From IMG/VR virus record IMGVR_UViG_3300025889_000038, positions 1-37,124 of that record: 37,124 nt of DNA; one strand, written 5' to 3'. This DNA comes from a virus. The notes beneath the pieces are model-generated. The model ran no database searches and was not told where the DNA came from. It saw only the letters and a program-made list of their open reading frames with translations. The position numbers and the translations under genes were made by a program. Positions 5,556-35,879 of the stretch are shown in pieces. Position 1 is the stretch's first letter, and every line of letters starts with the position of its first letter.

Positions 5556-6145
5556 GAATAAATGACTTATCAAAAACAATAAAACCAAAGTCTGACCAGT
5601 TGAATGCAGATGACTTAATCAGCGGACCAATGACCGTTACTGTGCAATCAGTCACTCTTAGCGGACAAGAAGATCAGCCAATTAATGTAAATTTAGGCGG
5701 AGGACTGCAACCATACAAGCCGTGCAAGTCGATGCGCCGATTATTGATTTTTGTATGGGGAAAAGATGGCAACGAATGGGTTGGCCGCAGCATGACGCTA
5801 TACAATGACCCAGCAGTTACATGGGCAGGCCAGAAGGTTGGTGGTATTCGTATCAGCCACCTGAGTGCAATTAGCGAACCGATTAGCATTGCCTTGACTG
5901 CAACCCGTGGCAAGCGCAAGCCGTACACAGTAGAGCCGCTTATTATTCCTGATTATCCTCAATCAGACTTTGATAATAACCTTCCAGCGTGGACAAGTGC
6001 CGTGCAAGCTGGCAAGATGACTACCCAGCAGTTGGTGGCAAAGATTCAACAGAAAGGGCTTCTATCTGCCAGCCAGTTAGATGCAATTAATTCAATAAAC
6101 ACACCGTCAAGCGAACAGCTAGACGACACACTAGAAGACCTATAA
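5552..6145 (+). CDS. Recombination-module protein of unknown function (possible OB-fold/annealing partner)
   Basis: 197 aa, ATGA-coupled to the exonuclease and followed by SSB. Residues ~25-125 are beta-rich with conserved-looking Gly, Trp and aromatic positions (LIFVWGKDGNEWVG, then a repeated AVTWAGQKVGG-like stretch), compatible with a small barrel. The C-terminus is an acidic tail ending in DDTLEDL. It is not a recognisable RecT, Redbeta, Erf or Sak by eye. In phages the gene between a RecE-like exonuclease and SSB is often an annealase or mediator, so that is the best guess, from position only. Confidence 0.75.
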   Translation: MRINDLSKTIKPKSDQLNADDLISGPMTVTVQSVTLSGQEDQPINVNLGGGLQPYKPCKSMRRLLIFVWGKDGNEWVGRSMTLYNDPAVTWAGQKVGGIRISHLSAISEPISIALTATRGKRKPYTVEPLIIPDYPQSDFDNNLPAWTSAVQAGKMTTQQLVAKIQQKGLLSASQLDAINSINTPSSEQLDDTLEDL

Positions 6146-6155
6146 GGGGTATTAC

Positions 6156-6461
6156 ATGGCTAAAATTGGCGTAAATTTAAAAATCGACGTTAGTAAGATT
6201 GATAAAACTCGCATGTTCAAAGGTGAGAAGGGAACTTACCTAGACTGCACAGCTTTTATTGACTTGGATAATCAAGATCAATGGGGCAATAACGGAATGA
6301 TAACTCAATCATGGAAAGATCAGCAGAAAGGTGAAGGCGCTATTTTGGGTAATAGCCGAATTTTTTGGAGTGATGGTAACTCTACGCCTAGTGCTAGCAG
6401 CAAGCCGCCAGCGCAGCAAGGTCAGTCATTTGACGACTTCGACGACGAAGTACCGTTTTAA
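6156..6461 (+). CDS. Phage single-stranded DNA-binding protein
   Basis: 101 aa. The N-terminal ~75 residues match small phage SSB-like proteins, with a MAKIGVNLKIDVSKID opening and a KGTYLDCTAFIDLDN core. A Ser/Pro/Gln-rich linker follows, and the protein ends in DDFDDEVPF. This acidic tip is like the DFDDDIPF tip of bacterial SSB, which docks partner proteins. It should coat ssDNA during replication and annealing. It is the last gene before a strong terminator at 6481, so the exonuclease, unknown protein and SSB form one transcription unit. Confidence 0.87.
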   Translation: MAKIGVNLKIDVSKIDKTRMFKGEKGTYLDCTAFIDLDNQDQWGNNGMITQSWKDQQKGEGAILGNSRIFWSDGNSTPSASSKPPAQQGQSFDDFDDEVPF

Positions 6462-6480
6462 TCAACAACTAAACAACATG

Positions 6481-6502
6481 GCGGCTTAGGCCGCTTTTTT
6501 TT
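6481..6502 (+). terminator. Rho-independent terminator after the recombination operon
   Basis: Stem GCGGC/GCCGC with a TTAG tetraloop (6481-6494), followed by eight T at 6495-6502. It sits 19 bp after the SSB stop. Read-through or a further promoter is needed for the small genes downstream. Confidence 0.9.
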
Positions 6503-6523
6503 GTGAAAAAATAAGGGGATATA

Positions 6524-6736
6524 ATGGAGTACCACAAAATGGACGCTCAGTGGATAAAAAATCAGATTAATAGACTTCCACTGCGTAACAGAAAAACCGC
6601 CCAGCAAGGCTACCAGGTAACATACAAGGCAGCGTATGAAGCAGAGCCAGTGGAGCACATGAAAAGCAACGCAGCTAGGCGAGCGGCAAATACACGTTTG
6701 CGAGAATATGTGAAAAAAGTACTTGCAATGCGCTAA
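6524..6736 (+). CDS. Small basic protein, unknown function
   Basis: 70 aa, ATG after GGGGATATA. The product is highly basic (many Lys and Arg) and predicted alpha-helical, ending in LREYVKKVLAMR. It has no Cys and no TM segment. The charge would suit nucleic-acid contact, but no motif is recognised. It follows the terminator at 6481-6502 and precedes another small gene with a strong SD. An internal Met at residue 6 is an alternative start. Confidence 0.65.
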   Translation: MEYHKMDAQWIKNQINRLPLRNRKTAQQGYQVTYKAAYEAEPVEHMKSNAARRAANTRLREYVKKVLAMR

Positions 6737-6782
6737 GCTGGCGTTTATCTTATACGGACACTAACAAGAAAGGAGAAAAATA

Positions 6783-7106
6783 ATGCCAGCAACAACACTA
6801 ACAATGGAACTTGGCGACTTCTCGCAAGCTATGCGGGACACGTACGGACTTAATCAGCCTAGCTATACAGTGCAAGTTATTACTGAGAAAGAAGGCAACA
6901 AAGAGCATCTAGCAGGCTTTGCGTTCACAGGCACGGGATTTTACATTATGCACTCACAAGAAAACGAGGCCGATATGTTAGCGGCTTTTATGTGCGCACA
7001 GCTACGCGAGAAGCCACAGGCTAAAACAACACGCGAGAACATCGCACTACCTGATAACAATTCGCGCTATAGAAGCAGTGATTCAACTTTGAATAGGTTT
7101 GGTTGA
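6783..7106 (+). CDS. Hypothetical protein
   Basis: 107 aa with an AAGGAGAAAAATA ribosome site and ATG at 6783. The first ~75 residues look like a mixed alpha/beta domain; the tail is Arg/Ser/Asn-rich and probably disordered. There is no TM segment or signal peptide. It is followed one base after its stop by the 28-aa reading frame that precedes the HNH gene. No family recognised. Confidence 0.72.
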   Translation: MPATTLTMELGDFSQAMRDTYGLNQPSYTVQVITEKEGNKEHLAGFAFTGTGFYIMHSQENEADMLAAFMCAQLREKPQAKTTRENIALPDNNSRYRSSDSTLNRFG

Positions 7107-7107
7107 T

Positions 7108-7194
7108 ATGAAAGCTACCCGCATCAACGGAAAATGGACTTACTACATAAACGGCGTGGCTATGTCGCGTGGGGAGTTGGAGCAAATAAAATGA
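7108..7194 (+). CDS. 28-aa ORF, possibly a small gene truncated by HNH insertion
   Basis: The ATG at 7108 gives a 28-residue peptide with a KxxxINGKWTYYINGVAMSRGEL pattern, ending in a TGA that overlaps the HNH start (ATGA at 7191-7194). The pattern of a basic start, NG, a paired aromatic, N/D-G and then a short amphipathic helix is echoed at the start of the 72-aa protein just past the HNH gene. It may be a real micro-gene or the 5' remnant of a gene interrupted by the homing endonuclease. No strong Shine-Dalgarno is visible. Confidence 0.45.
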   Translation: MKATRINGKWTYYINGVAMSRGELEQIK

Positions 7195-7724
7195 CACCAG
7201 AACAAGTAAGCGCGCTAAGCGAAAATGAGCTTAATTTTATAAAAAACTGCATTAGTTACGACCAATATACAGGTATTTTTACTTGGAGAAGCCCTTTATC
7301 AAAAAATGTAAAAGTTGGAGGTATAGCAGGAAGTAAAGAGTCTCAGGGTTACTGGGTCATTAAAATAAAAGGGAAGAGATACAAGGCACACAGGCTTGCT
7401 ATGGCTATTTCTGGCTTTGAAATTGATAATAATCAAGTAGACCATATCAATGGAAAAAGGTCGGACAATCGGCTTTGCAATCTAAGATTGGCATCTCACT
7501 CTAAAAACCAACAAAACCAAGCAATACCAAAAAACAACACTAGCGGTGTTATTGGTGTTTACTGGGCAAAAAATGTACAAAAATGGTACTCCTTGATAAA
7601 GTTAAATGGAAAGACTTTTAATCTTGGGTATTACTCAGATAAAAACGTTGCGATAGAGGTTAGGCAGTTCTCCGAGGAGGTTTGTGGGTTTCATAAAAAC
7701 CATGGAAGATCTGCGAGTGCTTAG
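7191..7724 (+). CDS. HNH homing endonuclease with C-terminal AP2 domain
   Basis: 177 aa from the ATG at 7191; an upstream in-frame ATG at 7134 lies inside the 28-aa ORF and is rejected. The HNH core spans ~64-108: YKAHR with H67, QVDHINGKRSDN with D84-H85 and N87, then NRLCNLR. Residues ~119-165 (GVIGVYWAKNVQKWYSLIKL and onward) form an AP2-like three-strand plus helix DNA-binding module. HNH-AP2 proteins are free-standing homing endonucleases of phages. The gene is more AT-rich than its neighbours and overlaps the next reading frame, both consistent with recent insertion. Confidence 0.9.
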   Translation: MTPEQVSALSENELNFIKNCISYDQYTGIFTWRSPLSKNVKVGGIAGSKESQGYWVIKIKGKRYKAHRLAMAISGFEIDNNQVDHINGKRSDNRLCNLRLASHSKNQQNQAIPKNNTSGVIGVYWAKNVQKWYSLIKLNGKTFNLGYYSDKNVAIEVRQFSEEVCGFHKNHGRSASA

Positions 7725-7746
7725 TATTAATGGGAGTGAACAAAAA

Positions 7747-7965
7747 ATGCTAAAAGTTAGACAAGACAACGGAAGTCCGAAGGCAAAGTTCTATTGGGAT
7801 AATCGCGAGATACCGGCGGAGCGAACAAAAGCCTATATTGATAAATACATGGAAATGCACTTAACTGAGCTAAAGCTATTAAGAAGCGAACTAGAATTAC
7901 ACAAAGCCGCTCTTCTGTTGCGCGAGCATCAAGTTAAGCGGCTACTAAAGGAGCGAACAAAATGA
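7747..7965 (+). CDS. Small protein with C-terminal coiled coil
   Basis: 72 aa from the ATG at 7747, with GGGAG ten bases upstream; in-frame ATGs at 7684 and 7702 would overlap the HNH gene. A short beta-like N-terminus (KVRQDNGSPKAKFYWDN) precedes a long Leu/Lys/Glu heptad helix, so it probably oligomerises. Its start resembles the 28-aa peptide before the HNH gene, hinting at paralogy. Its stop overlaps the next ATG (ATGA at 7962-7965). Function unknown. Confidence 0.65.
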   Translation: MLKVRQDNGSPKAKFYWDNREIPAERTKAYIDKYMEMHLTELKLLRSELELHKAALLLREHQVKRLLKERTK

Positions 7966-8051
7966 ACCTTACCTTGTGGGCATGCGGATTATACACAGCA
8001 GCTTTTGCGCTTGGTTTTACTCTGCTTTGGATAGATGCGAACATAAAATGA
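7962..8051 (+). CDS. 29-aa single-TM micro-protein
   Basis: ATG at 7962 preceded by AAAGGAGCG at good spacing. The peptide is nearly one hydrophobic segment (LTLWACGLYTAAFALGFTLL) ending in IDANIK. It is ATGA-coupled to genes on both sides (7962-7965 and 8048-8051), which is strong evidence that it is translated. It is a membrane micro-protein of unknown role. Confidence 0.7.
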   Translation: MNLTLWACGLYTAAFALGFTLLWIDANIK

Positions 8052-8446
8052 AATTAACGACACGAGAAAAAATCAAAGCTATGCCATCATTAAAGAAAGG
8101 TGATGGCTATCACTGGGTCTCAGCTCGCAACAAGTGGAAGGTGAGTTGTCACATAGAAGGTCATCTATGGTACGGTGGGCTGTATGAGAAAGAGGAGGAC
8201 GCAATGGAACAGGTAAAACTAGCAAGAAGTGGTCACGCGGATTTATGTCTGCGCGGTTTTGAGAACCCAGTCAGTAAGTTGAACGAGAAGCTGGTGTTAA
8301 GCATCCGAGCAGAACACGAAGAAAAAAAGCGCAAGATACAAGCGATCAAAGATGAATCAAGCGTGCCAGCGATGGCCAAGCGATACGGCGTGCACCCTGC
8401 AACTATTCGCGCAGTCTTGTCTCGTAAAACGTGGACGCATGTATGA
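8048..8446 (+). CDS. AP2-like plus HTH DNA-binding protein
   Basis: 132 aa from the ATG at 8048. Residues ~20-55 (GYHWVSARNKWKVSCHIEGH, then WYGGLYEKEEDAMEQV) have the AP2 three-strand pattern with W, K-W-K and GG-x-[YF] positions. The C-terminus (SSVPAMAKRYGVHPATIRAV) is a helix-turn-helix. It carries no nuclease motif, so it is more likely a regulator than a homing enzyme. It is coupled by ATGA overlaps to the TM micro-protein before it and to its AP2 paralogue after it. Confidence 0.8.
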   Translation: MKLTTREKIKAMPSLKKGDGYHWVSARNKWKVSCHIEGHLWYGGLYEKEEDAMEQVKLARSGHADLCLRGFENPVSKLNEKLVLSIRAEHEEKKRKIQAIKDESSVPAMAKRYGVHPATIRAVLSRKTWTHV

Positions 8447-8691
8447 AATTCACAAGCAACGACTTAGCAAAGCTAAAGCCGCAAAGCGACAAACCTAAGC
8501 GAGCAGTGCAGGGTTATTACTGGCATAACCAAACACAGAAGTGGAAAGTTAATTTCCGTATAGATGGTGTTAGCTGGTACGGTGGAGTATTCGAGAACGA
8601 GCAGGATGCTATTGATTGCGTACTGAACAAAAAGGCGCAATGTAAGCTGGTTACGCGGTCAAACCGCCCATCGTATGCAACGGCTTGCTAA
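8443..8691 (+). CDS. AP2-like DNA-binding protein (paralogue of preceding gene)
   Basis: 82 aa from the ATG at 8443, which overlaps the upstream stop (ATGA). Its core, GYYWHNQTQKWKVNFRIDG followed by SWYGGVFENEQDAID, aligns residue by residue with the AP2-like part of the preceding protein, showing a tandem duplication. It lacks the HTH tail. The gene meets the leftward lysis operon tail to tail: its TAA (8689-8691) overlaps the o-spanin stop by 3 bp, with no obvious terminator between. It probably binds phage or host DNA. Confidence 0.78.
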   Translation: MKFTSNDLAKLKPQSDKPKRAVQGYYWHNQTQKWKVNFRIDGVSWYGGVFENEQDAIDCVLNKKAQCKLVTRSNRPSYATAC

Positions 8692-8882
8692 TACCCATAC
8701 TCAAGTTCGATTATGTACTGAAACAAACGAGAAGCGTCAGGGCGAGTGAAACAAGTATTTGTATCAATCTCAAAGGCGCTTATCTGTGGCTTTACTGGCT
8801 TTGTCGGAGTCGTCACGCACCCCGCCAAAGTGGTCATTAAAAGCAGCAATAGGGTCGCTGTTAGCGTTCTTGATTTGCGCAT
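8688..8882 (-). CDS. Outer-membrane spanin lipoprotein (Rz1-like)
   Basis: 64 aa. A short basic N-terminus, a Leu-rich hydrophobic core and the lipobox LAGC (19-22) mark a lipoprotein cleaved before C22. The mature part starts Thr/Pro-rich, as in Rz1, and ends in a YIIELEYGY helix typical of o-spanins. Its start lies inside the neighbouring i-spanin frame, the usual Rz/Rz1 overlap (8770-8882). It should link to the inner spanin across the periplasm and fuse the membranes at the last step of lysis. Confidence 0.88.
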   Translation of the reverse strand: MRKSRTLTATLLLLLMTTLAGCVTTPTKPVKPQISAFEIDTNTCFTRPDASRLFQYIIELEYGY

Positions 8883-8964
8883 CTCGTTTGGCCTGTTTCT
8901 TTTCTGCTATGAACCGCTCCAGAATAGAGAGCAGTTCTAGCAGTATTTGTACTAGGTGGCTCAT
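8770..8964 (-). CDS. Inner-membrane spanin candidate (DUF2681-like)
   Basis: 64 aa. An N-terminal Leu/Ile-rich segment (LVQILLELLSILERFI) could serve as a weak signal anchor; a charged helix and a FNDHFGGVRDDSDKASK tail follow, resembling DUF2681-type phage proteins found in lysis cassettes. It starts at an ATGA overlap with the holin stop, and the lipoprotein spanin is embedded in its second half in another frame. Position argues for i-spanin. The unusually weak TM segment and short length leave some doubt. Confidence 0.7.
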   Translation of the reverse strand: MSHLVQILLELLSILERFIAEKKQAKRDAQIKNANSDPIAAFNDHFGGVRDDSDKASKATDKRL

Positions 8965-9164
8965 TTCTTGATATATGCTTCCGCTTTAATGCGGCCATAC
9001 ACAGCTAGCAAGCCACCAACACCGCCGCCTAGCGTAATGATTGCATCAACTAGGCTCGACTGATCTTCTGGACTAACCGCATAGCCGAATGCACTGGCAA
9101 TAGCCGCCGCCACTGCGATTAAGCCGCCCCATACTGCTTTTGACTGATACCATTTCTTTTCCAT
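8961..9164 (-). CDS. Holin
   Basis: 67 aa with two hydrophobic helices (residues ~10-29, VWGGLIAVAAAIASAFGYAV, and ~40-56, AIITLGGGVGGLLAVYG), a short polar loop and a Lys-rich C-terminus. This is the class II-type holin layout seen beside phage lysis enzymes. It is directly adjacent to the DUF5675-like gene upstream and overlaps the i-spanin start downstream. It should form the lesion in the inner membrane that triggers lysis. Confidence 0.85.
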   Translation of the reverse strand: MEKKWYQSKAVWGGLIAVAAAIASAFGYAVSPEDQSSLVDAIITLGGGVGGLLAVYGRIKAEAYIKK

Positions 9165-9617
9165 TCAGATTTCCTCGTCTTTGATTGTGATATAAACGTC
9201 TTCGTCGTCCTTCATTGCTTCAATGGCCAATAAATACAGGTCTTTGTAGCATTCGAAGCTATTCTCGCCGCCCATGTTCTCAGCGTCGGCTTTGTAATTT
9301 GGCAGAATGCAGCCTTCCGTGTCGTCGTCGTCATTGCCCGGGTGAATATAAATGCAGTCAAAACCATCCACGTCCTGTAGCTCAAGCATCCCTTTATGCC
9401 ATGGATACTTAGCATAACGCGCATTCATGCCGCCAGACCTGTTAAGCTCAATCTTATAGCGGCCAGCTGGGATGCGGGTTTCGCCTTTAACCTTGATGGC
9501 GCGGCGCTCATCCTCGACCGTGAAGCAGAACAAATACCCTGCCACGCCTTGGTTGATATAAAGCGCGCCAAGGGTGGCCTCGCTGTTGTTTCCAATTCTT
9601 TTTATTAGTAAGTCCAT
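9165..9617 (-). CDS. DUF5675-like protein, probable peptidoglycan-acting lysis enzyme
   Basis: 150 aa. Features of the DUF5675 family are visible: an early beta-rich domain, ETRIPAGRYKIELNRSGG, and a conserved IYIHPGNDDDDTEGCILPN block with H and C in an L,D-transpeptidase-like arrangement. There is no signal peptide. No lysozyme, amidase or transglycosylase gene is seen anywhere else in the genome. It sits directly before the holin and spanins, so it is the best endolysin candidate. The activity is inferred from context. Confidence 0.78.
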   Translation of the reverse strand: MDLLIKRIGNNSEATLGALYINQGVAGYLFCFTVEDERRAIKVKGETRIPAGRYKIELNRSGGMNARYAKYPWHKGMLELQDVDGFDCIYIHPGNDDDDTEGCILPNYKADAENMGGENSFECYKDLYLLAIEAMKDDEDVYITIKDEEI

Positions 9618-11507: not shown

Positions 11508-14500
11508 CTATGAACCTCGTACTATCCAGCTTATTATTGCGTCAACTCTAACACCTGTTGCGCGATCAAACGCACGCACAACAAAACGGTCCTGGTTGCC
11601 AACATCTTCAAAAGTTACTGCTAATATTTTACCAGTTTCGTCGCGCGGTGTCGCTACGACAGAATCTATGTCAATAAAAGCCTTGTTCAAAAACACTTCT
11701 GTACCACTGGCATCTGCTGCAAAGATTGGTGCTTGCCCTTGGTCTGTCTTCTGCTTAACGTCCAATCTAAAGCGAACGCTTGTTATCAGTGTTAAGTCAT
11801 TTTCAAACAAATGATTGATTTTTAAATAGCGGAAATTCGCGCTATTAATGTCTAATTGATTGGCAGGGAAATCATCCCAGCTAATGCCATCCGCAGATGT
11901 GCTTAGAGTGGTTGTTAGCGTGGCCGCTGGCCGCAGCGCTTCGCTTTCCACGATTACAGTTATGCGCGTATTAGGGATTAACGCCTCAAAATCAATTATG
12001 CGCTCTGCTACTCCGCTGCTAACTGGCGGGTCAAGGAAGTGATCAAAGCCATTAGCCAGCTTCTGGCCGTAAGGGTCGCCGCCTATGTTGTCCCACGCTA
12101 GCGTTTCATCGTCCCATGGCTGCGTTTCATCGTCCCAGTATAAAGCGGGGTCTGAAGTTAAACCGCTGCGAGCCATGTTCTCAATAAATGTTTCCGTATT
12201 GTTTACCGGTCCGATTAAATCGAAGCTAGGACCATCATCCCAACGCAATGTCTCGTCATCCCATGCAAGCGTTTCGTCATCCCACTTAAATCCACCGCCG
12301 CCAGCACCTAGCGCGACATTGGTCAGCGTGTCCATAAGCTCAAAATTAACGTAATCATCGCGGCGTAGAATGTAATCTTGCGCAGAGTCCACGCTTGCTA
12401 GAGAGGATTTAGGAGCGCCAACCGCACCGGATGCGTCCACCGGCTGCACCCAGTAGGTATAAACGCCAGCTTCTTCTTCTTTGGTTAAGTGGAATGTACC
12501 CGTGACTTCACCAAGTAGAGTTGCAGTGTTGAAATCTGTGCCCTTGCGCAGGCTATAATAAGCTATCGGGTAGATTGATTCAGAGGTCGCCCAGCGCAAC
12601 TCAATATAGTTATCCTGCGACGTTACATTAAGAAAGCCGACTTGCGCAGGTGGTTGAATGTTCGGGTTGAACATAACGCTATTCAATGAATAGTTGCCCG
12701 TCGTATCCAGTGCCTTGATGTAATAAACCGTTCCCTCTGTCCTGCGAATATCTGCAAAGCGCAATTGCCGCCCAGTGTATATTGCGCCAGCTTGCCCAAA
12801 GTTTTCGTCGATGCGTAGCTCGTACTCTTGTAAATCTGCATCTGGGACGGCTTGCCAAGAAATATCGATACCATAGCTTTTTTGCACCGCTGTTAAGCTA
12901 GGCACATCAGCAGGTGGGGCGCTCTTTCCAGCGACTGTATAAGAGCCGCTAAGCCAATCAGAAACTGCCCCAATAGAATTAACCGCGCGCACCCTAAACA
13001 CCCACTCGCCAGGCTTTACGTCTTCAATACGGGTAGACGTTGCGCGAACGTAATCACTAAAAACGACAAACTCACCGCCTTGATATGAGCCTTGGACTTG
13101 ATATTTCTCGGTTGAGAAATCAACCTCAGACCAGCTAATCAGCGCACGTGTCTTAATATTGCTCGCCACGTTGGTCGCATACAGTTCTTCGGATATAACA
13201 ATGCTTTCAGGCGGTAAAACAAAACGAGGATCAGGCAAATTCAAAGGCGCGGGAATAATCGTGGCCAGCGCATCGCCTTCTTCCCAAGAATAAATCTCTG
13301 GCGAGTCCTCACGCAGAACCATAGAGACACCAGCAATTGGGTCGATGTCGCGTTCAACTATCATCATCACCTTATTCTCGATGCCAATCTCTGGCAGGTT
13401 TAGCGTTACCCTGTCGCCAACTTTATAATCAAGCATCGTAAAATTAAACTGACCAACAACAGTAAAACCACGGCGCGACTGCTCAAGCATTATTTTTGCA
13501 ATTCGTCGGCATTGCGTACCAGAACTAACTAAAGAGAAATCGACCGACTTCTCTAGAGGCTCTTTGTCTTCTTGTAAGAATGTTGGCGTCTGAATAGATG
13601 GGAACTCAATCACTTCATAGTTATTATTGGCGTCTATGTAAGTGCCCGTAATTGTGTTGATCTTGCTGCTTTTTTCTTCGCCAACCTTTATCTGCAAACC
13701 AGAAATAAAGTCCTTTGACGTAATCACCGCATCGACCGCTGGCTCCTGATAAACGCTAGGTACTAAAAACCATTCGCCAGACGCTTTATCATTAACTGGC
13801 TGAATACCGCAGTTAGCGGCCATCTTTGTAATTGCAGATACTTTCGAACCTTCTAACACAATAGTGCCATTCAGTGCGAACCGTGGCTCAGTTGCACCGT
13901 CAGCAGCAGCCACCAGTTCATCCGACACATTAGCAGCAGCAATTACTGAGTCTGTATTGTAGTCAGTTAGCGCGCCGCCAATGTAATTAGTTAGCCAATC
14001 CAGTTCGCACAATGCCGCATTGTTTGTGTATTTGTACTGCCCGTCGCGCGGGTCGAAAATATCGTTTTTACCACGGATTACAGCCGTAACTTGTGGCTGC
14101 CCTTGAAATGCATCTTCATTATATTTGAATTTAATATAAACGTATGTTTTGCCTTTATAAAAGTAATTCGACTTGCCCAACGAGTCGAGATAAGTACGAA
14201 GCTGTATCGGCACATCGCCAAGGCCATCTGTTGATTTCTCAATAGCAAGCAAGCCCTTGAATTTTTTGTCAGTGCTTAGAGTGTTATCAATATAAATATC
14301 TATAATTTCATCGCAAGGATGCGCGGCGAATATATAAACCATATGGAGGTATCGGCTGTCGTTACCATTGGAACCAAGCGGAATTACTTGTGCACCAACT
14401 TTTGCAGTGCCGTAAATAATCCGCTGCGCGGTCGCAGGGTTTCGCGTGTTGATCTTGCGGTCTGCGTAGTCTAATGATGGTGTAAGCGCTTCGATTAACT

Positions 14501-14636
14501 TATTGCCAACCCACTCGAAAGCATCCACGCTAATAGATACAAGCGGATTAATAAGGTAATCAGCGCCACCCTGAACCAGCTTCCCCGCTGCGCCTTTGCT
14601 GTACGTTGGGTCTAAATCGCTTAAACTAAATCCCAT
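11508..14636 (-). CDS. J-like central tail hub / host specificity protein
   Basis: 1042 aa. The N-terminal ~460 residues have hub-type segments (TQCRRIAKIMLEQSRRGFTV, then DYKVGDRVTLNLPEIGIENK) typical of lambda J and gp27-like hub domains. Residues ~480-740 contain fibronectin type III-like modules (for example YQVQGSYQGGEFVVFSDY and WVFRVRAVNSIGAVSDWLSG). Two clusters of WDDET heptads lie at 785-802 and 834-850. The protein should close the tail tip, contact the tape measure and project fibres. It is the largest gene in the genome and is followed directly by fibre genes. Confidence 0.9.
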   Translation of the reverse strand: MGFSLSDLDPTYSKGAAGKLVQGGADYLINPLVSISVDAFEWVGNKLIEALTPSLDYADRKINTRNPATAQRIIYGTAKVGAQVIPLGSNGNDSRYLHMVYIFAAHPCDEIIDIYIDNTLSTDKKFKGLLAIEKSTDGLGDVPIQLRTYLDSLGKSNYFYKGKTYVYIKFKYNEDAFQGQPQVTAVIRGKNDIFDPRDGQYKYTNNAALCELDWLTNYIGGALTDYNTDSVIAAANVSDELVAAADGATEPRFALNGTIVLEGSKVSAITKMAANCGIQPVNDKASGEWFLVPSVYQEPAVDAVITSKDFISGLQIKVGEEKSSKINTITGTYIDANNNYEVIEFPSIQTPTFLQEDKEPLEKSVDFSLVSSGTQCRRIAKIMLEQSRRGFTVVGQFNFTMLDYKVGDRVTLNLPEIGIENKVMMIVERDIDPIAGVSMVLREDSPEIYSWEEGDALATIIPAPLNLPDPRFVLPPESIVISEELYATNVASNIKTRALISWSEVDFSTEKYQVQGSYQGGEFVVFSDYVRATSTRIEDVKPGEWVFRVRAVNSIGAVSDWLSGSYTVAGKSAPPADVPSLTAVQKSYGIDISWQAVPDADLQEYELRIDENFGQAGAIYTGRQLRFADIRRTEGTVYYIKALDTTGNYSLNSVMFNPNIQPPAQVGFLNVTSQDNYIELRWATSESIYPIAYYSLRKGTDFNTATLLGEVTGTFHLTKEEEAGVYTYWVQPVDASGAVGAPKSSLASVDSAQDYILRRDDYVNFELMDTLTNVALGAGGGGFKWDDETLAWDDETLRWDDGPSFDLIGPVNNTETFIENMARSGLTSDPALYWDDETQPWDDETLAWDNIGGDPYGQKLANGFDHFLDPPVSSGVAERIIDFEALIPNTRITVIVESEALRPAATLTTTLSTSADGISWDDFPANQLDINSANFRYLKINHLFENDLTLITSVRFRLDVKQKTDQGQAPIFAADASGTEVFLNKAFIDIDSVVATPRDETGKILAVTFEDVGNQDRFVVRAFDRATGVRVDAIISWIVRGS

Positions 14637-14640
14637 TCAT

Positions 14641-15207
14641 CTAATCCCAGTAGCTACTTGCTGGCCATATAATAATTAATTCCGCGCTAGACGAAATATC
14701 AGCAAAGCAGAAATCACCCGGGTAATCTCTGATCTGTTGTTCGTGCGTGTATAGCGTTCTAATGTCTCTGTCCCAGTCTGCAAGTATATCACGAACTGGA
14801 ATTCTAATAACGGACGATTCGCCAAAATTTAGCTCAGGCGGCTGCAATAATCCACGAAATAAAAGCACAGGGTCTGGAATCACAACACCGTTTTCATCTA
14901 ACAGCACCCAATGAACCGAACACGTTCGATTAATAATCGGCTGATTCAGGAATAAAGAAATCAGCGCCTTATCTATACCGCCGATGACTAGCTCATAATC
15001 AGCAGGGTCTAGCTTGTTTGTTTCTTTTACATTGCTAACTGAACCAATATCACCAAGATAATTAAATGTTTTTCCATCGAAAACAATCGGGCTTGAATTC
15101 GTCGTGAAGTACAAATTCCCGCTATCAAGGTTTAGCTCAACTAACAACGCAATGCGCCCTATGTGCCGCTGTGCTAGAGCGGCTTTAAGTTCTGTTGTTA
15201 TCGCCAT
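14641..15207 (-). CDS. Tail tip assembly protein (hub-associated)
   Basis: 188 aa. The fold is suggested by ALLVELNLDSGNLYFTTNSS, FNYLGDIGSVSNVKET and LDPADYELVIGGIDKAL, a pattern found in siphophage minor tail proteins between the distal tail protein and hub. No Cys-rich or peptidase (NlpC/P60) motif is seen, so it is not the lambda K homologue. Its start overlaps the preceding stop (TAATG). It probably links the distal tail ring to the J-like hub. Confidence 0.75.
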   Translation of the reverse strand: MAITTELKAALAQRHIGRIALLVELNLDSGNLYFTTNSSPIVFDGKTFNYLGDIGSVSNVKETNKLDPADYELVIGGIDKALISLFLNQPIINRTCSVHWVLLDENGVVIPDPVLLFRGLLQPPELNFGESSVIRIPVRDILADWDRDIRTLYTHEQQIRDYPGDFCFADISSSAELIIIWPASSYWD

Positions 15208-16919
15208 TAGAAATCCTCTAACAGAGAAAACGACGCATTGTAAATAAGCGGGCCTTGTACCTGGAATTGCGCTTGGTCGTCATTCTCAAGCCTAAAAGTC
15301 GCGCTCGGTTTGTCCGTGATAATGCTAGAGCCATCTGGCGGCGCGTTGCGCAGCTTTGGCGCAATTGGTATTAGAGCAGTGCCTTCTACTAGTGCTGGGA
15401 ATTGATTAGGGTCAGCAGGTAGCACTACTGCTGGGTAGTCGGTTGCCTTACCGAAGTAGGCGGCTTGTAGTTTTAATGCTTCTCCTGCTTGAACTAAACC
15501 AGTCAATCCTTGCATCCAAAGTACGCACCGGTAATCGCTATTTAATGCACCTGTCGCTAATGACTGAACCAAAAAATAACCATTGTCCAGCTCTGTGATT
15601 TTTGTTGTAAAGTCTAGTGATCCGCTAGGACTCTCAACCTCGCCAGATGTTAGATTTACATAGAAACTAACAGCATTCGTGCCAGATGGCCTTTCTTGCA
15701 CTGTAGCCCTTATATAGTTAAATCCATCAGGCTTTACAATAAAACAAAAAGCTATGTTATCACCAGATAAAAACGGCGTATCATCACCTATTAATATGTT
15801 TGCCGTGCCAGGCCCAACATACTCAAACCTACCAACAAAACTTTCCCCGCTCGGGTTTGCCTCTACAACGCTAGAGTAAGACAAATCGACATCACTCACC
15901 CCGCTCCATCCACTCGGGTCAAACGGACTTGGCATTAAGTTCGTCCCAGTGTAAGAAACAGAACCAGGGAACTTGCCAGACTTACCAAAAAAAGCGGCTT
16001 GTGCTTTTATCTTGTCGCCTACATTTGGCGGATTAAAAAAGAAATCACTATCGCAATATACAACCCCTCGATATGGCAAGCTTTCTTGAACAGTATATTT
16101 TACTTGTACAAGGTAATATCCATTAGATAGCTGTTCTACCATTACCTCGTCAGGATCTGTTGTTCCAGAGATAAAATCACCAGTTTCACCGTTGATCGTG
16201 GTTAGCTCTTCTGTTGTCGGTGTTCCTCCTACATTTTTTTGCAAAAATAATCGCATGTACTTAATTGGATTTGGCTTAAATATAAAACAAATAAAAGCTG
16301 TTTCACCCAAAGTGAAGTTTTGATAATTTGATTGAAATATAGACATGGAGGCTGGACCAACATATTCAAACTCACCCACAAAACTTTCCCCGCTCGGGTT
16401 TGCCTCTACAACGCTTGTGTACAATATATCTGGGTCGCCAGCTCCAAGCCACCCTTCAGGGTCGAACGGACTTGGAACTGAATTAGTCGCATCTGGATAA
16501 CTAACCAAACTAGACGTCGCAACATCGCCAGTAACTATTTTAAGCTCGCCATTTGCCTCAATGTAATCACCAGCTGAGAACAACAGCTCTTGACCGTCAT
16601 CCCAGCCTTTGGTGGATAACACGCTGCCCGTCTGACCTGCACCATTAACAACGCCTGCACCGCTTGCAGTGCCTATATTGCTAATTGATTCTGGCGAGTA
16701 TTTAAAACGGGTACGCGAACCGCCAAGGCTAAACAACCATGCGCGCAGCTTCGCAGCGTCTGAGCCGTGTCGGTTACTGAATTGCAAAGTAGCCGCCCAT
16801 TTATCGCCGCTTAGTTCTGCTGTTTTTTTGTCGCCAGTTAGCACTGACTCATAACTTTGGTTAGATGAAATTAAGCGTAGGTTTTCATCATTTGGTTTAA
16901 CGTCTGGAAAGTCTGCCAT
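15207..16919 (-). CDS. Distal tail protein with duplicated inserted module
   Basis: 570 aa, about 350 longer than the ~200-aa core expected. The outer parts look like a standard distal tail protein: residues ~1-135 (KLRAWLFSLGGSRTRFKYSP and AGDYIEANGELKIVTGD) and ~510-570 (RLENDDQAQFQVQGPLIYN). Between them are two related modules starting at residues 149 and 330, exactly 181 residues apart. Each begins PSPFDPxGW, contains SSVVEANPSGESFVG-like text, then an all-beta domain ending with FFGK/YFGK. These look like carbohydrate-binding or receptor-binding domains grafted onto the tail tip. The insert is much more AT-rich than the flanking core. Confidence 0.82.
   Translation of the reverse strand: MADFPDVKPNDENLRLISSNQSYESVLTGDKKTAELSGDKWAATLQFSNRHGSDAAKLRAWLFSLGGSRTRFKYSPESISNIGTASGAGVVNGAGQTGSVLSTKGWDDGQELLFSAGDYIEANGELKIVTGDVATSSLVSYPDATNSVPSPFDPEGWLGAGDPDILYTSVVEANPSGESFVGEFEYVGPASMSIFQSNYQNFTLGETAFICFIFKPNPIKYMRLFLQKNVGGTPTTEELTTINGETGDFISGTTDPDEVMVEQLSNGYYLVQVKYTVQESLPYRGVVYCDSDFFFNPPNVGDKIKAQAAFFGKSGKFPGSVSYTGTNLMPSPFDPSGWSGVSDVDLSYSSVVEANPSGESFVGRFEYVGPGTANILIGDDTPFLSGDNIAFCFIVKPDGFNYIRATVQERPSGTNAVSFYVNLTSGEVESPSGSLDFTTKITELDNGYFLVQSLATGALNSDYRCVLWMQGLTGLVQAGEALKLQAAYFGKATDYPAVVLPADPNQFPALVEGTALIPIAPKLRNAPPDGSSIITDKPSATFRLENDDQAQFQVQGPLIYNASFSLLEDF
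15420..16475 (-). repeat. Tandem 543-bp module repeat inside the distal tail gene
   Basis: Two copies with a period of 543 bp: the CGGACTTGG block recurs at 15924-15932 and 16467-16475. A stretch of at least 35 identical bases recurs at 15838-15872 and 16381-16415. The remainder is diverged at the DNA level but recognisably similar in protein, so the duplication is not recent throughout. The right border is set by the first PSPFD and the left border (~15420) is approximate. Confidence 0.85.
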
Positions 16920-18571
16920 TATCTTAATTGTCCTTTGCGTCTTGCTTCATTATACGCTGAAATGGCCGCCTTTTTCATCAATGGCACAGCACTCATTATT
17001 TCAGCTTGGACTGTGCCTTGTATTCCTGGCGATATTTGGAAGACATTTGTTATCTGCGGAGACGAGCCGCCTAAATTGTGATTAGCTTGCACACTGCCGT
17101 TGCCGTTCATGTGGACAATTTCTGGCCCGTTCTCGCCTACTAGATAGCTGTTTCCGCTCGATACTTGCCCACCCATTGCGCGTGCGCCTTGGTATTCTTG
17201 GGACTGGATTTTTGCTATCTGAACGGCAGCTAATGCGCCGATAGTTACAGCAAGCCCAGGGCCGATCACTGGAACAGCTAGAGCGTTGTTGATAGCAAGC
17301 GCGGCAGAAATTGCAGCCTGCGCACTAGCGAACATTTTATACTCGTCAAACTGTTCCTTTCCGCCCTCGCTCGCAATGCTGGCAAGGTTTCCAAATAGCT
17401 GGCTAGTGGCAGACAACGCGTTTTGTTGCCCTGCTGTTAGCATCATTTGCTTCTGTTCGTTCGTGCGCTTCTCAATCGCAATCAAGTCAGCACTTAACTT
17501 TTCAGCATTAGCAACGCGCAACGCGTCGTATTTCGCTTGGTTATCTTTGTCTTGTTCGTTTGCCGCATTGATAATTTCAAGTCTACGCTCAGCAGCATTA
17601 ATAACAGACTGATTAGGGTCTGCCACTTGCTGCTCAACCGTTGCGAGTTGGCTAGCTAACGCAGCTCGCGCGGTCTCTTGGTCTTTTAATGCTTTTGTTT
17701 CAGCTTCTATCTTGTCGATGCTGGCTTGCATGTGCAAAGCACTAGCAATCTCTGCTTCTGTTGCGCCATTTAAAAGCAATTCGCGTTTCAGTAGTTCGGA
17801 ATTGTTTAGCGTCAATGCCGCAAGCTGATCAACTAATTCAAGTTGCGCCTGCTGTATCGCTGTCGCTCTTTCTGTTTCTGATTTTGTCTGGCCATTGAGA
17901 ATAGCCTCACGCTGCTTAAGAGTATTATTGTTTTCTTCAATAGTCTGTTTGCTTTCAGCAATAACTAAATTTAAGCGAGCTTGTTCTTCTTGGTATTCAA
18001 GAATACCTATGCGCCCTTTCTCATAGCTTGAGATAAGACGATCAAGTTTAAAGACTGCAGTATCATATTGCCCAGTTGCTTCTCGGGTTTCTTTGTTTAG
18101 TCTTTTCTGATCTTCTGCTAGATTTATTCGCAAAAGCTCTTTTTGTGCATTGCCTAATTCTTCAAACTTAGTAACTAAGTTATCAAGTTCTTCTCTGGTG
18201 TCAGCTGTTTGTGATTCTGTATCGCTTAACGCAGTCAGCAACGGCCCAGCCATAACACCAGCTGCAGCACCAACAAGGATTCCAAGAGTACCAAAGCTCA
18301 GCAACATATCAGGAAGCTGGATAGCCAACGCGCCAAGGTAGTTGCCAGTAACAGCGCCTTGCTGCGCAACTTGGTTAAGCTGGAATGAAAGGTTGCGGGT
18401 AGCACCGCCAAAGTTATTGCTGGCCTTTTCGGCTTTGCCACTTTCAGCCGCCATGGACTTGGTTGATTTCTCAGCCTTACCAGCAGACGTGCTCAGTTTA
18501 TCAAGCTGTGCCTGCGCTTGTGTTACGCCCTTGGTTTCTGCTTGTATTGCGAGCTTGGCTATATCTGTCAT
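16919..18571 (-). CDS. Tail tape measure protein
   Basis: 550 aa. A Lys/Ser/Ala-rich N-terminal helix (QAQLDKLSTSAGKAEKSTKS) precedes a hydrophobic stretch around residues 80-120 (LLSFGTLGILVGAAAGVMAG). Long coiled coils (~120-400) and a second apolar region near 425-455 follow, then a Gly-rich tail (GGQVSSGNSYLVGENGPEIV), a segment common near tape-measure C-termini. At 550 residues it predicts a rather short tail. Position between chaperones and distal tail protein confirms the role: it sets tail length and is ejected ahead of DNA. Confidence 0.92.
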   Translation of the reverse strand: MTDIAKLAIQAETKGVTQAQAQLDKLSTSAGKAEKSTKSMAAESGKAEKASNNFGGATRNLSFQLNQVAQQGAVTGNYLGALAIQLPDMLLSFGTLGILVGAAAGVMAGPLLTALSDTESQTADTREELDNLVTKFEELGNAQKELLRINLAEDQKRLNKETREATGQYDTAVFKLDRLISSYEKGRIGILEYQEEQARLNLVIAESKQTIEENNNTLKQREAILNGQTKSETERATAIQQAQLELVDQLAALTLNNSELLKRELLLNGATEAEIASALHMQASIDKIEAETKALKDQETARAALASQLATVEQQVADPNQSVINAAERRLEIINAANEQDKDNQAKYDALRVANAEKLSADLIAIEKRTNEQKQMMLTAGQQNALSATSQLFGNLASIASEGGKEQFDEYKMFASAQAAISAALAINNALAVPVIGPGLAVTIGALAAVQIAKIQSQEYQGARAMGGQVSSGNSYLVGENGPEIVHMNGNGSVQANHNLGGSSPQITNVFQISPGIQGTVQAEIMSAVPLMKKAAISAYNEARRKGQLR

Positions 18572-29180: not shown

Positions 29181-29621
29181 CTAAAACCCATAACTAAACC
29201 CAGCGTTATAAACCGCTGGCATTACCAACACCTTAAAGCTAATGCGCTTCGCAATGTTGAACTGATAATATAAACCAGGTGACACTAAGACACCATAGCC
29301 TAGCGTATGAATGTAACCCTCATAGCCATAAATCGCACTCGCCCCCACTCCTAATTCGTGCCGTCCATACTTCCAAGACTCGCCAATGCCTAGCTGATAG
29401 CTGCGCACATAATGCGAATTAACGAACGTCCCAGCGTTATAGAAGCGGCCGTCATCGCCCCATTGAATCTGTATTACTTCGTTATCTTCGTTTAAATGGC
29501 TTCTCGGTTTAAAGTGCTTCGTATAGCGCCCACTGTAAATAGACGCCTCTGCATTCGCCTCCGGCATTATCGTGTAAGCTAGCGCCAAGATTAAAACGGC
29601 CATGGTTATTTTTGTTGTCAT
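29181..29621 (-). CDS. Exported beta-barrel-like phage protein (possible host-surface modifier)
   Basis: 146 aa. A Sec signal peptide is visible (MTTKITMAVLILALAYTIMP, cleavage after EANA, ~24). The mature part has alternating aromatic/Gly strands, including YNAGTFVNSHYVRSYQLGIG and VGASAIYGYEGYIHTLGYG, and ends with AVYNAGFSYGF; the terminal Phe is typical of outer-membrane barrels. Similar small exported proteins are scattered through phages of Gram-negative bacteria with unknown function. It could alter lipid A, block a receptor or exclude other phages; all of that is inference. Confidence 0.75.
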   Translation of the reverse strand: MTTKITMAVLILALAYTIMPEANAEASIYSGRYTKHFKPRSHLNEDNEVIQIQWGDDGRFYNAGTFVNSHYVRSYQLGIGESWKYGRHELGVGASAIYGYEGYIHTLGYGVLVSPGLYYQFNIAKRISFKVLVMPAVYNAGFSYGF

Positions 29622-35048: not shown

Positions 35049-35879
35049 TTACCCGAACAAGTCGCACGACTCTGAACAGCCGTTTGCATTGTCGCTGATT
35101 GACTCATAGTATTTGTCGTTAAATCTATCAAACACAGATTTAGCCGCTTCTAGCATTTGCTGCGTGTTTCGGTTCTTTCTAAAGAAATTACCTTTATTGT
35201 TTTCTGCGTTAAACCCACCATCCTTAGCTATAATCTCCATATTATTGAAATGGTCAAACAAAGCTGGATTGTCATTTGCCAAAGTTAGCAGCTTTCTATC
35301 TGATTTTTTCCAGCATGTAACGCAGTTCCCGTAATGCTCTGGCACATCAAGATCAAAAGCCTGACGACTCCACCACCCCAAAACATCCCCCTTTCTGGTT
35401 GGGAATTTTGTTATTAGCGGGTAAATTATCCGCATTTCATCCATATTAGCCGCCATTCTATCAATCTCGTCACACCTGATGCCTACAGCCCTATAAGCAT
35501 CTTGGCAAGTATCGGCAAGCCATGCGTTGAAAGGTTGTAGTTTCAGCTCCCGATTGCAGTGTGGGTAGCTCTGGTTTGGTATGCCGTATTTTTTCACAAC
35601 TTCATAGAATGGTTCGCACTGTCTGCTAGCTGTTTCATAATTAACAATTTTGTATTTTGTACCTACTCGCTCACCGTGTTTCACATCAGCCTCAAGCCAC
35701 ACTAGGTTAAGTCCCCATTCACGATCGCAGCGGTCAACAAAATCCAAAGTCCTTTCATCTTCTGCGCCAGTGTTCATGAATACAAAATATTGGTTGCTTG
35801 CCAAGGGCTTTAACTGCAACTGTCTAGCCATGTAAGCTGACGTTCTCCCTCCTGAAAAGCTGATCACTAGGTTTTCCAT
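35049..35879 (-). CDS. PP-loop ATP pyrophosphatase (PAPS reductase-like)
   Basis: 276 aa. The PP-loop is SFSGGRTSAYM (7-17) and a second motif GIRCDE lies at 133-138. Cys residues C88, C108 (PHCNRELK), C186 and C189 (GNCVTCWKK) and a GCSESC tail could bind an iron-sulfur cluster. It should activate a substrate with ATP as PAPS reductases, DndC and tRNA-thiolation enzymes do. Phage versions are widespread and their substrate is unclear: sulfur metabolism, nucleic-acid thiolation and defence escape are all possible. The SD is GGAGAGG and the gene ends at a terminator. Confidence 0.88.
   Translation of the reverse strand: MENLVISFSGGRTSAYMARQLQLKPLASNQYFVFMNTGAEDERTLDFVDRCDREWGLNLVWLEADVKHGERVGTKYKIVNYETASRQCEPFYEVVKKYGIPNQSYPHCNRELKLQPFNAWLADTCQDAYRAVGIRCDEIDRMAANMDEMRIIYPLITKFPTRKGDVLGWWSRQAFDLDVPEHYGNCVTCWKKSDRKLLTLANDNPALFDHFNNMEIIAKDGGFNAENNKGNFFRKNRNTQQMLEAAKSVFDRFNDKYYESISDNANGCSESCDLFG

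Follow-up and report, generated by a model that had tools for sequence, protein, structure and literature searches.

The question raised by this locus is how a distal tail protein came to carry two related domains inside its core, and what these domains might do for the virion. The window, by which we mean the whole 37,124-nucleotide stretch analyzed (IMG/VR record IMGVR_UViG_3300025889_000038), contains a cluster of tail genes in which the distal tail protein (DTP) gene directly follows the tape measure protein (TMP) gene in transcription (Table 1). The gene order, TMP-DTP-tail protein-J, is the tail-tip cluster setting that is also seen for evolved distal tail proteins (evolved Dits). A megablast comparison of 25 kb of the window with cultured phages gave no match, and a close-relative search with the whole 570-aa protein gave 0 relatives among 6 pattern hits.

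Table 1. Features of the distal tail locus, in window coordinates
Feature	Position	Strand	Basis
Distal tail protein gene, 570 aa, double insertion	15207..16919	-	phrog_1302 'distal tail protein', E 2e-29 (match covers residues 2-136; E value counts the whole 570-aa protein)
Tape measure protein gene, upstream neighbor	16919..18571	-	phrog_1538, E 2.1e-33
Tail protein gene, downstream neighbor	14641..15207	-	phrog_2048, E 3.2e-36
Central tail fiber (J-like) gene	11508..14636	-	phrog_31, E 1.2e-60
N-terminal core, residues 1-140	16500..16919	-	aligns with 7 insert-free distal tail proteins
C-terminal core, residues 511-570	15210..15389	-	aligns with C-terminal part of insert-free relatives
Module 1, residues 141-321, predicted CBM-like beta-sandwich	15957..16499	-	module HMM; AlphaFold2 mean pLDDT 85.4, pTM 0.81
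Module 2, residues 322-499, related predicted CBM-like beta-sandwich	15423..15956	-	module HMM; full-length model
38-bp block inside module 1, identical to module 2 block	16378..16415	-	sequence identity
38-bp block inside module 2, identical to module 1 block	15835..15872	-	sequence identity

The core of the window protein is split. All seven of the distal tail proteins aligned with it, from cultured phages of Vibrio, Escherichia, and Serratia (183-202 aa by annotation), are free of inserts and continuous across the junction. The window protein is colinear with them at both ends and has ~365 extra residues, with junctions near residues 138-147 and 510-513. An eighth relative, from Salmonella phage SE1, was excluded from the alignment because the deposited gene is interrupted and split over two reading frames. 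The first-pass annotation had described a ~200-aa distal tail core split by two related modules with a 543-bp period, and the open reading frame, the repeats, and the alignment bear this out; relatives without the repeats are ~200 aa long and not 570 aa. It had placed the insert at 15420-16475, which is the correct location, although the extent is slightly wider (15423-16499, residues 141-499).

The two modules are identical at 73 of 178 aligned residues (~41-42%). Direct repeats at an offset of 543 bp cover 138 nt at 75% identity and 37 nt at 73%, a period to which Tandem Repeats Finder is blind (its longest period is 500), and self-alignment of the protein scored 325, compared with 34 +/- 6 (maximum, 68) in 500 shuffles. 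The insert had also been called AT rich. The GC contents of the two sampled lines are as given (26.7% for 16261-16320 and 60% for 16741-16800), but the strong contrast is not maintained over the whole insert, which has 42.2% GC versus 46.1% for the window; GC was lower in 8% of 361 equally long stretches. A strong AT-rich foreign origin of the insert was rejected on these values.

A model of the single module, built with a 28-row alignment, is nearly all beta, and in a model of the full-length protein both modules are separate domains, mostly with pLDDT of 70-92 by ten-residue block, rather than a fold continuous with the core. Among the structure matches listed, the best was residues 198-385 of a 500-residue baseplate chain from the Pseudomonas phages Pa193 and E217 (VIA-align Z of 16.0 and 14.7, respectively). 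The size of this chain, together with the text of the E217 paper, suggests that it is E217 gp45, and that text points to the chain being probably a structural subunit. The next matches listed were carbohydrate-binding modules (CBMs), namely, an alginate-binding CBM, CBM22, CBM4, and CBM16, with Z of about 9-11 over 128-151 residues (VIA-align; Foldseek). Named matches among predicted viral structures were mostly tail fibers and other phage proteins. A fold search with the full-length model returned mostly antibodies with poor superposition and was not used, except for repeated hits to Pa193 and E217.

By sequence, the family is poorly covered by existing collections. Pfam searches with 28 module members gave chance-level matches only (E of 0.036 or more) and no CBM model at E up to 1, and the only PHROG matches were weak one- or two-member matches (best E, 0.0012). 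The nearest PDB sequences were also weak matches, to a tail fiber (E 0.027) and to the head spike fiber of RcGTA (PDB 6tb9; E 0.039). On the predicted structures, the modules share a carbohydrate-binding-type beta-sandwich fold with CBM4, CBM16, and CBM22, and together with the split core and the separate predicted domains this supports the earlier proposal of grafted beta modules of carbohydrate-binding type. A CBM-like fold is by itself no proof of sugar binding; the modules may bind glycans and thereby have a role in adsorption and an effect on host range. Because the core is poorly modeled (pLDDT below 50 at residues 81-150 and 501-536) and a search with the distal tail alignment gave no PDB sequence match to it, we can only infer where on the tail the modules lie: the phrog_1302 core would form a ring at the tail tip, with the modules displayed outside.

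The module is found in a wide range of genes. In two scans of viral contigs, 28 of 67 and 35 of 71 pattern hits, respectively, proved to be relatives. Of 36 whole records searched, 34 carry the module, in 42 copies and at least seven gene contexts; several of these records are near-copies of each other and so are not independent events, and all carriers are metagenomic contigs, often fragments. The largest context is the phrog_1302-type distal tail gene (17 records, the majority recognized by their resemblance to the window core), followed by a head-region gene of ~206-228 aa (9 records), which, if its neighbors are present on the contig, has a scaffold- or capsid-side gene on one side and head-completion genes on the other. 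A phrog_11633 protein (4 records), a phrog_5939 tail protein (3 records), a phrog_11439 tail fiber, a phrog_384 virion structural protein, and a phrog_4920 protein with additional matches to baseplate wedge subunits (1 record each) make up the remainder. Two records, G020 and G027, carry the module in both a distal tail and a head-region gene, giving 36 placements in 34 records. Among 50,697 records of cultured phages, no relative of either window module was found at the sensitivity used; module 1 had no matches, and the only two for module 2, both at E 5, were to a gene of a Mycobacterium phage. Plasmids gave no match to module 2, and the module search of bacterial genomes gave 0 relatives among 22 pattern hits.

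In a tree of 29 module sequences, the sister of module 1 is a module in the phrog_5939 gene of contig L010 (support, 100/99). Module 1 is identical to it at 118 of 181 residues (~66%), versus 73 of 178 for its tandem neighbor. The two-module genes of L013, L017, and L029 behave likewise, as their own copies are not sisters. Residence in a DTP required 10 changes on the tree, versus a mean of 9.5 with shuffled labels (394 of 500 shuffles were as low), and is thus no more clustered than chance. Of the 43 domain hits, 29 went into this tree, after removal of 12 exact duplicates, of a weak match over 145 residues (L016), and of a fragment of 26 residues (L030).

Modules are also decoupled from their cores. 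Among 91 pairs from 14 distal tail genes (L044 is without a module of the same family), near-identical cores carry divergent modules (L022/L037, 0.97 identity in the core and 0.45 in the module; L023/L029, 0.96 and 0.43), and divergent cores carry similar modules (L018/L019, 0.47 and 0.85; L017/L020, 0.46 and 0.84). In the six pairs read position by position, identity breaks near the motifs PFDPSGW and QAA(F/Y)FGK, and breaks at these end motifs are also seen in the phrog_5939 and head-region genes. The identity of the N-terminal module end was 0.86 within contexts and 0.76 across them, and that of the C-terminal end was 0.82 and 0.65, with 0 of 5,000 label shuffles as high in either case, although part of this within-context gain reflects shared flanking ancestry. 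Module interiors were no more alike within contexts than across them (0.28 versus 0.29; 3,186 of 5,000 shuffles as high). This pattern indicates that the module ends stay with the gene and that the interior moves. The comparison covered 23 of the 29 modules in seven contexts (those of L011, L012, L023, L027, L033, and L034 were not placed); in its two "tandem" contexts, genes of the distal tail and phrog_11633 types are pooled.

Taken together, we think it probable that the window protein is best explained as an evolved distal tail protein with CBM-type cassettes exchanged by recombination. The phrog_1302 core ring would display two tandem CBM-type beta-sandwiches outward from the tail tip, and the modules would act as cassettes, in which the gene-specific ends are retained and the interior between PFDPSGW and QAA(F/Y)FGK is replaced. 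During co-infection, homologous recombination could bring in the replacement from modules of another phage, carried in its distal tail gene or in other virion genes; recombination at the conserved ends would be the simplest mechanism. The window encodes an exonuclease VIII-like protein, for which no annealing partner was recognized among the neighbors searched. It is more tentative to suggest that these genes draw on a common stock, the gene-specific ends serving as recombination sockets and glycan-binding interiors being swapped among tail-tip, fiber, baseplate, and capsid-region genes. If this were true, one specificity could reach both the head and the tail of one virion, and a single virion could combine several specificities.

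Tandem copies in one frame would also be expected from a simple duplication within the gene, in which the copies diverged and the identical block was kept by selection or gene conversion, with no exchange between genes. This block, first noted as at least 35 bp of identity and measured here at 38 bp, fits such an account in several respects: 12 of 13 same-residue codons in it are identical between the modules versus 25 of 60 outside it, a run of this length was reached in only 72 of 20,000 shuffles, and an exact 35-mer of it was found in no contig of the viral_contigs set, which may lack the record of the window itself. The duplication account does not explain why module 1 groups with a module from a different gene, nor why the copies of three other two-module genes are not sisters. 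The module tree thus largely refutes it, leaving only a short local conversion tract, and we consider it quite unlikely; the two modules are related, as the first-pass annotation held, but they are not a simple duplicated pair. As for the block itself, both explanations offered earlier, constrained residues and gene conversion, appear to apply. Its protein motif, around NPSGESFVG, recurs across the module family, which argues for constraint at the protein level. The codon identity, the rarity in shuffles, and the low codon sharing of L010 (only 4 of 11 same-residue codons shared with module 1 in the block, despite closer overall likeness) make a short conversion tract within the distal tail gene likely on top of this constraint, as a codon-level local homogenization.

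Two other accounts bear on the interiors and on function. The ends might be required by the fold and the interiors might diversify fast in place under selection, with no replacement at all; the ends are indeed conserved in all contexts, even across them, and at several positions in the ends the 28-row alignment shows no variation. This would leave unexplained how 85% identical modules come to lie in 47% identical cores, how a module identical at 118 of 181 residues comes to lie in a different gene, and why the ends track the host gene while the interiors do not, and it is therefore improbable. Alternatively, the modules might be structural spacers or domains for virion assembly or stability, like the domain of the E217 baseplate chain, and not receptor binders. 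That the best structure match is to this chain, probably a structural subunit according to the text of the E217 paper, is in keeping with such a role. However, the next matches are carbohydrate-binding modules, and neither such variation in near-identical cores nor presence in head and tail genes alike is expected of a structural part, which leads us to doubt this reading strongly and to retain exchanged cassettes of carbohydrate-binding type.

Because its core is split by predicted CBM-like modules that are absent from insert-free relatives, the window protein is an evolved Dit, a known kind of protein, here with a core of the phrog_1302 type found in phages that infect Gram-negative hosts. 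In Gram-positive (lactococcal, streptococcal, and Lactobacillus) siphophages, evolved Dits are described in which one or two CBMs are inserted (PMC7291167), and a skunavirus evolved Dit is reported to restore full infection of exopolysaccharide-bearing lactococci (PMC10688798). The window protein resembles these in carrying inserted modules that are of CBM type by predicted fold. It differs in its phrog_1302 core and in a module family distinct in sequence; the evolved Dits described have galectin domains at the periphery of the core and in many cases carry modules like BppA. The insertion site expected in an evolved Dit is a loop of a galectin-like domain; in the window protein, the core was modeled at low confidence. 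In 936 phages, BppA-type CBMs are reported in the Dit, a major tail protein extension, and the neck passage structure (PMC6669499), so that there, as here, several virion proteins share one module type, whose junction stretch is better conserved than its other parts. Unlike in that account, the carriers here include a tail fiber and a gene close to that for the major capsid protein, and exchange in near-identical cores is directly visible. The PDB sequence search gave 4 matches with an E value of 10 or less, none of them BppA of Tuc2009 (PDB 5e7t); BppA was also not among the 50 structure matches listed, which excludes nothing.

Other parallels are looser. Marine roseophage R4C has an insertion domain on its distal tail protein for which host polysaccharide binding is proposed (PMC10276861). 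It too is an extra domain on a siphophage distal tail protein, but it is a single domain, described as resembling the outermost T7 fiber domain, with no cassette exchange in the account given, whereas the window protein has two modules. The RcGTA head spike fiber Rcc01080 is capsid anchored, and its cell binding is raised by the capsule (PMC10218006). Its profile match to the module (150 positions, E 0.039) is not significant as homology, and as described it is neither tandem nor in a distal tail protein. In Alishewanella phage LSH1, a sea surface siphophage of a Gram-negative host, the distal tail protein is reported to be homologous to lambda gpM (PMC13243795); its decoration is described as lectin- or galectin-like and is apparently not a window-type module. 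Shuffling of fragments between phage proteins is reported to be ongoing and strongest in tail fibers and spikes (PMC10684548). The main text of that study is without the term "distal tail," and in the present case a single cassette family can be followed through tail-tip, fiber, and head genes.

In open-licence papers we found no description of this module family. What goes beyond the known kind is a family without a Pfam or PHROG entry, on a phrog_1302 core, with probable exchange across several virion genes, and this carries the evolved-Dit idea beyond dairy phages, to tails of the phrog_1302 type. Module swapping is in line with one of the known means by which phages alter the surface they stick to. 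If near-identical cores do freely exchange their modules, host-surface recognition would be decoupled from phage phylogeny in this uncultured group, and the module interior, not the genome or the distal tail core, would predict a virion's attachment. Pairs with near-identical cores and different modules would be a natural swap set for the effect of one domain on adsorption.

The head-region module gene overlaps another gene. It has an ATG of its own, which lies within a conserved 68-aa gene but in another frame (L068 11702-12470; L064 13148-13916), and its N terminus is rich in Arg and Lys. The 68-aa gene lies directly downstream of the major capsid gene, a neighbor identified by PHROG in L068 only (phrog_247, E 3.8e-100). 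L066 has a relative of the 68-aa gene, and the module gene is absent there. Expression of the module gene by translational frameshifting out of the 68-aa gene was set aside, though not conclusively, as the module frame has its own ATG with GAGG nine bases upstream; the conservation of its overlapped N terminus between L068 and L065 (67%) also counts against a frameshift. A diversity-generating retroelement was rejected as the diversifier of the modules, as no reverse transcriptase (RVT_1) was found in 12 records, which may be fragments; the control search was positive in 3 of 14 genomes.

Some other variable segments and neighbors were seen. The phrog_11633 gene, of unknown function, follows directly after a tape-measure-like gene in two contigs (L071 7267-8919 and 5926-7263; L073 1903-3693 and 3697-5055), which is the position of a distal tail protein. 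In the phrog_5939 genes of L010 (3568-5022) and L026 (5098-6804), a second internal segment upstream of the module, of the TNL...YIPT type and at about residues 66-225 of L026, differs inside near-identical flanks. A second, unrelated-looking cassette occurs at the distal tail site, starting near YNEF/YNEW and ending near WWPA or similar. It is alone in L044 (2708-3793), follows the first module in L023 (1553-3226) and L027 (3231-4862), and also follows it in the L033 tail fiber (5824-9372). In the window, the J-like fiber gene contains two short arrays of 21-bp tandem repeats (12090-12284), and a DUF5675 protein with a weak Tlde1 match (9165-9617) adjoins the tail genes and has relatives in L067, L073, and L075 (73-81% identical). 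The window also has two host-type genes, for a PagP-like protein and a phosphoadenosine phosphosulfate reductase (29181-29621 and 35049-35879).
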